Below the pieces are notes generated by a model. The model ran no database searches, was not told where the DNA came from, and saw nothing but the letters and a program-made list of their open reading frames with translations. A stretch of DNA of 39,859 nucleotides from a virus. The stretch spans positions 1-39,859 of the IMG/VR virus record IMGVR_UViG_3300027714_000043. One strand, given 5' to 3'. Made by a program: the position numbers and the translations under genes. Below are positions 73 to 11,795 of the stretch, one piece after another (position 1 is the stretch's first letter; each line of letters begins with the position of its first letter).

Positions 73-408
73 TTAGTACATTGCTAATAGTGAAAAAGCA
101 GTCTCAGCTGAACTAAACTGCCAAGATTTTATTGCTAATGGAAGAATAACGCCCTTTAAAAAAACTGTTTTTGCTTGAGCATTAGTTAAACTTGAAGTAG
201 AATCATCTCCAAAAGTTATAACTAAATTACCACTACCTCCAATTTGAGCCGCAACAAGTACACCTCTTGGAACACCTTTAGCCCCAGTTGCAAACGCACC
301 AGAAGGGGTTGCATCTGCCGACGTAACGTATTCTAACGCAAAACTTGCAGATACATTCTCTTGTACGGAAAAATTGTGGATTGCGTTGGACTTATTAATA
401 TTTGCCAT
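73..408 (-). CDS. Small virion-associated protein, unknown (111 aa)
   Basis: Unrecognised protein of 111 residues. It is Ala/Ser/Thr/Gly-rich with alternating beta-like segments and almost no charge clustering, which fits a surface or decoration-type virion protein. The start ATG at 408 follows AAGGAGTGAATAA, a good ribosome binding site. It is the first gene after the hairpin at 471-493, so it may be read from leftover read-through of the capsid message or from its own promoter. Virion role is inferred from position next to the capsid genes. Confidence 0.7.
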   Translation of the reverse strand: MANINKSNAIHNFSVQENVSASFALEYVTSADATPSGAFATGAKGVPRGVLVAAQIGGSGNLVITFGDDSTSSLTNAQAKTVFLKGVILPLAIKSWQFSSAETAFSLLAMY

Positions 409-10018: not shown

Positions 10019-10064
10019 TAGATGTATCCAATAAGGGATGCACGAACAAACATGGAGTTTTAAA

Positions 10065-11006
10065 ATGAATAAAGCAAATTATACTAAAATATGCGAAAGA
10101 GTTAACGACAGGATATTAGGCTTTTTAGAAGAAGGTATTGTACCTTGGCAGAAACCTTGGGTAGGAGGTAAGGCAAATGCACCACGTTCAGTATCATCTA
10201 ATAAAGTGTACAGAGGTACAAACTTAAGTATTCTTAGCTGTGCAGGTTATGAGAGTCCTTGGTTTCTTACATATGGTCAAGCTTCTAAATTAGGTGGAGC
10301 TGTTAAGAAAGGTGAAAAGTCTTATCCTGTAGTATATTGGAAGTTTAACCCATCAGAAAAATGTACTGGATATTATGGTACAACCTCTGGATGTTCGGGT
10401 AAGACTTGTGGCAAGTGTAAAGGTTCAGGTACTTATAAACCATTACCCAACCTATTTAGTTTTAATGTGTTTAATGCTAATCAATGTGAGGGCTTACCTG
10501 AGAAGTATTATCCAATGATTAAAGAGGATAAGGATGCAAGGGATTTTACACCTGTTGAAGCTTGTGAGGAGATTGTAAAGAACTATCAATCTAAACCACA
10601 AATTATGCATGACCAAAAGGATTCATGTCATTACTTACCATCTAAGGACGAGGTACACATGGTAAGAGCTGAGAAGTTTATTTCTGACGAAGAGTATTAT
10701 TCTACATTTTTTCATGAGTTGGTTCATTCAACTGGGCATAAGTCTAGGTTAGCTAGAGAAGGTGTTACTGGTCAGCATTTTTTTGGGTCTCATGTCTATT
10801 CTAAAGAGGAATTAGTAGCTGAGTTAGGTTCAACTTATTTATGTGCCATAGCCGATATAGATAGAACATCAGTAATAAAGAATAGCGCAAGCTACATTAA
10901 TTCATGGAAATCGAAGCTTGAAGATAATGTAGATTGGATTGTTTGGGCTGGCACTAGAGCAAGCAAAGCAACAGACCATATACTAGGTGTAAGCTACGAT
11001 AAATAG
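10065..11006 (+). CDS. ardC: ArdC-like antirestriction protein with zincin domain
   Basis: A 313-residue protein. The N-terminal part (about 5-115) matches the ArdC ssDNA-binding domain: VNDRILGFLEEGIVPWQKPW, then SNKVYRGTN and YGQASKLGGAVKKGEKSYPV. A Cys-rich insert (four Cys within CSGKTCGKCKGSG and just before, about 105-122) looks like a zinc knuckle. The C-terminal part is a zinc-metallopeptidase-like fold with HELVHSTGH (HExxH) near 216 and the downstream EELVAELGS glutamate. ArdC proteins protect incoming DNA from restriction early in infection. The start at 10065 follows ACATGGAGTTTTAAA; an ATG at 10038 lies before this binding site and is rejected. First gene of the early block. Confidence 0.88.
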   Translation: MNKANYTKICERVNDRILGFLEEGIVPWQKPWVGGKANAPRSVSSNKVYRGTNLSILSCAGYESPWFLTYGQASKLGGAVKKGEKSYPVVYWKFNPSEKCTGYYGTTSGCSGKTCGKCKGSGTYKPLPNLFSFNVFNANQCEGLPEKYYPMIKEDKDARDFTPVEACEEIVKNYQSKPQIMHDQKDSCHYLPSKDEVHMVRAEKFISDEEYYSTFFHELVHSTGHKSRLAREGVTGQHFFGSHVYSKEELVAELGSTYLCAIADIDRTSVIKNSASYINSWKSKLEDNVDWIVWAGTRASKATDHILGVSYDK

Positions 11007-11050
11007 GATAGTTTGGAAGTTGGGCAGGTTCGAGTCCTGCCCTATCCTCT
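11005..11050 (+). ncRNA. tRNA-like acceptor/T-arm minihelix (possible att site)
   Basis: A textbook T arm, GCAGG-TTCGAGT-CCTGC (11024-11040), is followed by CCTATCC and a discriminator T (11041-11048). The 5' strand GGATAG (11006-11011), right in the ArdC stop codon, pairs with it, giving an acceptor stem. Between them are only 12 bases, including AAGTTGG, which resembles a D loop. D and anticodon arms are absent, so it is not a working tRNA. It may be a tRNA 3' end used as phage attachment site (a tyrosine recombinase lies at 14902) or an RNase P/tRNase Z processing signal in the message. Confidence 0.6.
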
Positions 11051-11066
11051 ATGGCAATTATGCCAT
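11051..11066 (+). ncRNA. Short hairpin before the 11087 gene
   Basis: ATGGCA-ATTA-TGCCAT forms a perfect 6 bp hairpin directly after the minihelix and 4 bases before the AAACATGGAG leader. It could protect or expose the ribosome binding site after processing. Purely structural observation. Confidence 0.4.
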
Positions 11067-11086
11067 TCTTAAACATGGAGTACAAA

Positions 11087-11527
11087 ATGCATAATACTAA
11101 AAAATATAATGGATACGCTAACTGGGCAACATGGGATTTCCACATGATTAGCAACAATGACTATAACTTGTACAACCAGATAAGAGATGTTGTCAGTAAT
11201 AACTTAGATGATAAAGCAAAAGTCATTCAATTCTTGCGGAATGTAGCCTCAGACGATTATGGTGTAGACTACTACAATGTAGACTTTAGCGAGGTTGCAG
11301 AAACTTGGATAAATGATATTAAGGACGAGCTGTATAATAACTGGTTAGATAATAAGGTAGCTAAATGGGAAGTATATGTTGCTGATGAAAATGGTAAAAA
11401 AATAATAATGAAAGTAGCTGAATCTAAAAGAGCTGGAGTTATTCTTTACAATAAATTAATTAATTCAGATAATTATCACGAAGTTGGAATGAGAGTAGTA
11501 AAAGAATCTGTAAATAAAGAAGGTTAA
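11087..11527 (+). CDS. Small phage protein, DUF7249-like (146 aa)
   Basis: Acidic, aromatic 146-residue protein. The N-terminus has YNGYANWATWDFHM (about 6-19), the motif found in a family of small phage and plasmid proteins (Y-N-G-x-x-N-x-x-T-W; I recall it as DUF7249), whose function is unknown. The middle is helical with Asp/Asn/Tyr; the last third (about 95-146) looks like a separate small alpha/beta unit. Start at 11087 follows AACATGGAGTACAAA. The stop codon forms part of stem I of the hammerhead at 11522. The gene at 11864 shares the N-terminal motif. Read as an accessory early gene. Confidence 0.65.
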   Translation: MHNTKKYNGYANWATWDFHMISNNDYNLYNQIRDVVSNNLDDKAKVIQFLRNVASDDYGVDYYNVDFSEVAETWINDIKDELYNNWLDNKVAKWEVYVADENGKKIIMKVAESKRAGVILYNKLINSDNYHEVGMRVVKESVNKEG

Positions 11528-11578
11528 CTGATGATGGGCTGAATGCCCGAAACTCTCACTTCGGTGAGAGTCTTAACC
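11522..11578 (+). ncRNA. Hammerhead ribozyme (type I) in a message leader
   Basis: Stem I is GGTTAA (11522-11527) with TTAACC (11573-11578). Then comes the conserved CTGATGA core (11528-11534), one extra T, stem II GGGC-TGAAT-GCCC (11536-11548), GAAA (11549-11552), and stem III ACTCTCAC-TTCG-GTGAGAGT (11552-11571) capped by a UUCG loop, followed by C17 at 11572. The GTC triplet before the predicted cut is canonical. Both ends leave through stem I, so type I. Cleavage after 11572 would leave a message starting TTAACCAAACATGGAG, 22 bases ahead of the next start codon. Departure from consensus: the extra T between A9 and stem II; one viroid hammerhead has an extra base in this same place. No obvious stem I loop for tertiary contact was seen. 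Confidence 0.82.
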
Positions 11579-11594
11579 AAACATGGAGTACAAA

Positions 11595-11795
11595 ATGCAT
11601 AAATATTATTTTGAAATTAATGGTGAAGAGTTTTTAATCAGAGTAAACATCTCAACTGGCAAATATGAGATATTCAATGGTCAGTTAGAATTAGTCGAAG
11701 AAGACTTTACATTATTTGAGGTGACTAAAGAAAATGCCTATAATAATTGCTTAAGTATTTATTATAATTTTATAGATGAACAGTACGCATCATAA
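11595..11795 (+). CDS. Small acidic protein after the hammerhead (66 aa)
   Basis: A 66-residue acidic protein with Glu/Asn/Tyr-rich beta-like N-terminus (HKYYFEINGEEFLIRVNI). The start at 11595 lies at the usual distance from ATGGAG in AAACATGGAGTACAAA; an in-frame ATG at 11583 is inside the binding site. No family recognised. Its leader is identical over about 20 bases to that of the gene at 11087, and it is the gene whose message the hammerhead would release. Followed by a promoter at 11804. Confidence 0.6.
   Translation: MHKYYFEINGEEFLIRVNISTGKYEIFNGQLELVEEDFTLFEVTKENAYNNCLSIYYNFIDEQYAS

Follow-up and report, generated by a model that had tools for sequence, protein, structure and literature searches.

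What does a hammerhead ribozyme do between two genes of a phage early operon? The role of bacterial and phage hammerheads has been a question since 2010–2011, and we have approached it through a single locus in an IMG/VR record of 39,859 bases from an uncultivated virus of bacteria, an AT-rich sequence (33% GC) that is referred to in its entirety as the window. Its terminase, portal and capsid-like genes lie on the minus strand and an early/replication operon lies on the plus strand, as do the genes and RNA elements described below between 10038 and 11795. The phage also encodes YqaJ/RecT recombination proteins and a tyrosine integrase. Within the early operon an ArdC-like anti-restriction gene (10038–11006, matching ArdcN and MPTase-PolyVal) is followed by gene 11087 (11087–11527, 146 amino acids), which is weakly DUF7249-like (E = 9e-4, below the gathering score) and has too few relatives for comparison. 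The next gene downstream (11595–11795, 66 amino acids) belongs to no known family. The putative ribozyme lies at 11522–11578, overlapping the end of gene 11087.

A sequence-only reading of this DNA had proposed a type I hammerhead here, and every part of it is found where that reading placed it. Stem I comprises 6 bp (11522–11527 with 11573–11578) and is followed by the core sequence CTGATGA (11528–11534) and by one extra T, a U in the RNA, at 11535, between A9 and position 10.1. Stem II has 4 bp (11536–11539 with 11545–11548) closed by the loop UGAAU. The GAA at 11549–11551 forms the conserved GAAA (11549–11552) together with the first base of stem III, a helix of 8 bp (11552–11559 with 11564–11571) that includes the A15.1-U16.1 pair and is capped by cUUCGg. 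C17, at 11572, is the last base of a GUC triplet (11570–11572) lying ahead of stem I, as required of a cleavable NUH triplet; relatives have GUC, GUA, AUC and similar sequences at this place. The parts are thus in the correct order, with the conserved type I core C3 U G A N G A9 … G12 A A A15.1 … U16.1 H17 and with three helices joining at the core, of which stem I is open and stems II and III are closed by loops. The minimum free energy fold of 11515–11600 is exactly the hammerhead structure (z = −2.9), and a loose hammerhead core pattern is expected to occur only 0.02 times per window. By homology to the hammerhead GUC triplet, self-cleavage is predicted between 11572 and 11573, which would generate a downstream RNA beginning with a 5′-OH U at 11573.

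In order to ask if the stems are maintained by selection, relatives were collected from 80 terminase-related IMG/VR contigs and from two pattern-derived sets (the first set among the matches listed). With a structural scanner we detected about 20 more hammerheads among the terminase relatives, and at least 306 unique ones over all sets. A non-circular test was provided by 93 unique sequences picked by the core and one stem II sequence alone. Both remaining stems form in 86 of these (76 of them with a stem I of exactly 6 bp), compared with 0.7% after shuffling of the flanks. In an alignment of 33 sequences the two sides have both changed in 13 of 15 pairs, with a covariation score of 0.817, against 0.170 on shuffling and at most 0.106 for slid partners; the rows of this alignment were chosen as paired, so that the evidence lies in the both-side changes and not in the 100% pairing. 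Related phages had been named in the sequence-only reading as the place to look for compensatory changes, and loss of the stems there as a reason to abandon the proposal. The changes are present in all three stems, and the stems are clearly preserved. Their caps vary, stem III being closed mostly by UNCG or GNRA loops in the relatives.

A strong UUCG-capped hairpin between two genes might also be an ordinary terminator or stabilizing hairpin that merely resembles a hammerhead. This is scarcely credible, as no U-tract follows the hairpin and the core residues CUGANGA and GAAA do not vary among relatives, even though the stems of these are entirely different. On the sequence evidence, the element at 11522–11578 is a true hammerhead of type I that carries one extra U.

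Rfam does not recognize it. Release 15 matched no hammerhead in the window even when E values up to 10 were allowed, and the element falls below the gathering cut-off of 34 bits for RF00163 (Hammerhead_1), a score that is a threshold of the model and not a biochemical definition. Among some 75 hammerheads of this phage type in 23 other loci, just two pass Rfam. Because the same models miss nearly all of these covarying relatives, we read the failure as a limit of the models and not as a refutation; this type of phage hammerhead is largely invisible to Rfam. The window element has the same core, the same type I permutation and the same GUC cut site as the schistosome- and newt-like ribozymes of RF00163, but its open stem I is shorter and has no internal loop, and it carries the extra U. 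We therefore built a covariance model from the 33 aligned phage sequences, with the window left out. It gave one match in the window, at 11522–11578 (58.5 bits, E = 3e-12), and 381 matches in other loci collected, many of which had been gathered by hammerhead patterns and two of which are near-identical copies of the window element. The covariance score suggested earlier as a check is thus below threshold with Rfam but high with the model of the phage family.

Isolated phages offered little for comparison. A search of INPHARED gave no DNA match for the region and no convincing match for the ribozyme, and the terminase relatives among isolates are less than 60% identical. The structural scanner found no such hammerheads in the first 50 kb of each of HTVC115P, CRP-13 and HTVC033P.

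The extra T after A9 had been noted in the sequence-only reading. It is indeed present, but it is not a singular defect. Among the matches listed, 32 of 306 unique relatives (about 10%) have a single additional base following A9; it is nearly always U, and all the stems of these ribozymes are intact. Its occurrence is clustered, with 4 of the 5 hammerheads of locus L180 and several copies in L184, L142 and L170, a distribution that looks like a trait of particular phages. The extra U could slow cleavage. The (+) hammerhead of Chrysanthemum chlorotic mottle viroid reportedly has an extra A after A9 and is active. The likeness lies in the additional nucleotide in the region of the catalytic core; the viroid ribozyme serves replication of the viroid RNA and its extra base is said to be A, whereas the phage element lies in mRNA and has U. 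An extra core nucleotide in a viroid hammerhead is attributed to De la Pena and Flores (2001), as cited in PMC3705267 and PMC6155905.

It had also been remarked that stem I shows no loop with which to make a tertiary contact. Although stem I itself forms no loop, a contact between its open end and loop II is still plausible, because conserved adenines flank stem I and loop II is mostly UNAAU in the relatives. The base immediately 5′ of stem I is A in 98% of relatives, and the two bases immediately 3′ are A in 99% and 82%.

The position of the ribozyme relative to the genes is as constrained as its structure. The stop codon of gene 11087 (TAA, 11525–11527) lies within stem I, as had been proposed, and cleavage after 11572 is predicted to leave 22 nt before the ATG at 11595, a geometry that is kept across hundreds of relatives. 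The leader of the predicted released message continues from 11579 to 11594 and includes a GGAG ribosome-binding site (11585–11588). Among the matches listed, 220 of 240 upstream stop codons fall between −16 and +12 of the core: stem I holds 76 of them, the core 37 and stem II 16, and the others lie just upstream. All three frames are used. The start codon lies 16–30 nt after the cut in 171 of 266 cases, again among the matches listed, and usually at 19–28 nt with a peak at 22. In all 147 cases neighboring hammerheads share a strand, with a median spacing of 556 nt. The 461 flanking proteins belong to 294 families and are mostly small and of no known family; the few known ones are RNA polymerase, DNA polymerase, thymidylate synthase, ligase and ArdC. 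No common function emerged when the flanking genes were searched for one, and their diversity points to a general processing role rather than the control of one gene.

These data bear on the proposal that the ribozyme is a switch coupled to translation, in which a ribosome that stops at the TAA of stem I would prevent the ribozyme from folding, and cutting would thereby report the translation of gene 11087 and alter downstream expression. Since so many of the ribozymes contain a stop codon or have one no more than about 16 nt away, a ribosome terminating there would sit over stem I or the core. Yet stops are found in all three frames and often just upstream, as tight packing of the ribozyme behind a gene would give, the flanking genes are diverse, and tRNA-like elements with no such dependence on timing occupy the same places (see below). 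Control by ribosomes is possible, but no better supported than tight packing, and we consider it unlikely.

Two further observations concern other hammerhead-bearing loci. At L088 a type P3 twister ribozyme (174–241, plus strand; Rfam 42.5 bits) lies ahead of a gene of 108 amino acids whose stop codon is inside a hammerhead at 607–665; the twister is a possible third kind of gene separator. GGTTAA-type hammerheads are paired on two short MAG contigs, L300 and L301, labeled beta proteobacterium and Streptomycetaceae bacterium, which are probably phage contigs binned with bacteria.

The hammerhead is not the only structured RNA at a gene boundary of this operon. Immediately after ardC, starting at the last base of its stop codon, the window contains a tRNA-like minihelix (11006–11049). 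This comprises an acceptor stem and a T arm (6 + 6 bp) that would stack as a 12-bp coaxial helix, with a canonical T loop (TTCGAGT). The two arms are joined by an 11-nt linker containing UGG, and there is no D stem, anticodon arm or CCA. The element scores 47.1 bits with a covariance model built without the window, its pairs covary in relatives, and ARAGORN does not call it a tRNA. A second small hairpin lies directly 3′ (11051–11066) and is found in relatives with a changed stem sequence; there the minihelix is often followed by such a small covarying hairpin. No description of such phage tRNA-like elements was found in Rfam or in the papers searched.

A tRNA 3′ end in a phage that encodes an integrase might be an attachment site. 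We rejected this as the main reading of the minihelix because a phage may have up to five different minihelices in its operon, all intergenic and oriented with the operon, and because both helices show compensatory changes. The closest analogues are the t-elements of plant mitochondria, which resemble tRNAs but do not serve as such; they lie at the ends of mRNAs, and their cutting by RNase P and RNase Z defines those ends (PMC11658184). The phage element shares a tRNA-like structure at an mRNA end; it differs in belonging to a phage and not an organelle, and in consisting of the acceptor and T arm with a short linker only. By this analogy it would be a likely candidate substrate for the RNase P and RNase Z of the host.

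Minihelices between phage genes are widespread, with examples at L016 4117–5674, L072 456–2822, L138 2450–4280 and L324 near 2559 and 2911. The two of L324 lie around one small gene and have the same acceptor stem (AGCATA/TATGCT) with different T stems, a parallel to the stem I matching of hammerheads discussed below. Weaker matches to the minihelix model (21–26 bits, about 33 nt, repeated in one operon) at L066 2141–4507 and L078 68–100 (minus strand) are perhaps a shorter variant with almost no linker.

Hammerheads and minihelices exchange places. The 3′ end of ardC is followed by a minihelix in the window and in L009, L016 and L020, and by a hammerhead in L025, L029 and L048; hammerheads or tRNA-like elements flank the gene in relatives. 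L020 (minihelix) and L029 (hammerhead) align over about 136 nt up to the junction. The two kinds of element mix or alternate within one operon, and in all 25 cases from 17 loci, some of them near copies, they share a strand. In an unrelated pattern set, minihelix pairing was found at 28 of 128 sites (4 of which overlap ARAGORN tRNA calls), compared with 44 of 1240 shuffles. The window itself has one of each, with separators at only two of the roughly twenty gene boundaries of its early operon. An exact repeat of 24 nt (11071–11094 and 11579–11602) spans the leaders and first codons of the neighboring genes, including the whole leader of gene 11087 (11071–11086), and its sequence suggests a duplication of a leader cassette. 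One copy lies behind the minihelix and the other behind the hammerhead. A hammerhead as such is unremarkable in a phage; what surprises is that it interchanges with a tRNA-like element.

The tight arrangement of stop codon, ribozyme, 22-nt leader and start codon, together with the minihelix in the same place, points to RNA cleavage between genes as the selected function. We propose that the hammerhead, transcribed as part of the early operon RNA, would fold behind the stop codon of gene 11087 and cut after 11572. The upstream message would then end in the stable hairpins of stems II and III with a 2′,3′-cyclic phosphate, and the downstream message would start with a 5′-OH on a short A-rich leader, 22 nt before its ATG. 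A 5′-OH end should escape decay that depends on a 5′-monophosphate. Cleavage may affect RNA half-life and translation. The hammerheads would then form a large family of separators dividing polycistronic phage RNA into single-gene messages, with a minihelix taking the same place in sister phages, as it does at 11006–11049 in the window. From the structure, covariation, placement, clustering and replacement observed in the sequences, we put the probability of this whole explanation, a real hammerhead serving as an mRNA separator interchangeable with the minihelix, at about 0.7. The extra U, the silence of the Rfam models, the small share of boundaries in this operon that have a separator and the missing CCA of the minihelix weigh against it.

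Might the ribozymes instead be remnants or passengers of a mobile, recombining cassette system, with little function in cleavage and with recombination at the core accounting for matched stems? Close relatives differ in the order of the genes around ardC but retain the separators, the neighbors are mostly small genes of no known family, and the window phage has the recombination proteins and integrase noted above. Passengers, however, would be expected to lose the strong selection for pairing that is evident in the core and in the both-side changes of all stems. The close placement relative to stop and start codons also speaks against this view. We regard this explanation as quite improbable.

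The matching of stems within a phage was analyzed separately. Copies in one phage share stem I above expectation (0.71 versus 0.52, z = 8, in the non-GGTTAA set), whereas the corresponding values are z = −0.3 for stem II, for which the comparison is weaker since some of the sequences had been gathered by one set stem II sequence, and z = 2.2 for stem III, barely above expectation. The matching of stem I, with z about 8 when all copies are taken, persists where stems II and III have diverged (0.71 versus 0.48 expected, n = 28). Gene cassettes may have been exchanged at the ribozyme, or the RNAs may be religated and circularized; the matching fits either. In the latter case, an RNA segment bounded by two hammerheads would begin with the 3′ half of stem I and have the 5′ half close to its 3′ end, and the matched halves would let the downstream ribozyme ligate it into a circular or religated single-gene RNA; hammerheads do ligate when tertiary contacts are present (PMC6155905). 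Against this, Perreault et al. searched for circles and found none (PMC3088659), the window has a single hammerhead, and shared ancestry or cassette exchange could equally keep stem I matched. Circles are thus very unlikely to be the function. A broader scheme, in which hammerhead, minihelix and the twister of one phage are interchangeable RNA punctuation that makes portable single-gene units, with stem I matched for religation into circular or reshuffled messages, is offered as speculation to which we give little weight.

Clusters of hammerheads in prophages were described in 2011 by Perreault et al. (PMC3088659), who proposed that they cut long transcripts into single-gene mRNAs; some of these, including ones around ardA, cleave in vitro and in E. 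coli. They share the catalytic core with the present family, lie between or around single small genes, and are found near an anti-restriction gene, ardA there and ardC here. The present elements differ in being all of type I, with an open 6-bp stem I, flanking adenines and a UNAAU loop II, in being mostly missed by Rfam, and in some copies having the extra U after A9. What is added here is the measured, fixed geometry of stop codon, ribozyme and start codon, the matching of stem I within a phage, and the replacement by tRNA-like elements in sister phages. The HDV-like theta ribozymes (PMC10879173) are likewise self-cleaving RNAs in phage transcripts close to tRNA structures; they are of another ribozyme class, and they act on the 3′ ends of suppressor tRNAs beside phage tRNAs and not between coding genes, unlike the window hammerhead.

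If the separator reading is correct, these elements would provide compact, portable and naturally evolved separators for synthetic operons. For the phages themselves, it would mean that many carry a layer of mRNA processing that is overlooked by current annotation and by Rfam, and that is similar in principle to the tRNA punctuation of mitochondria.
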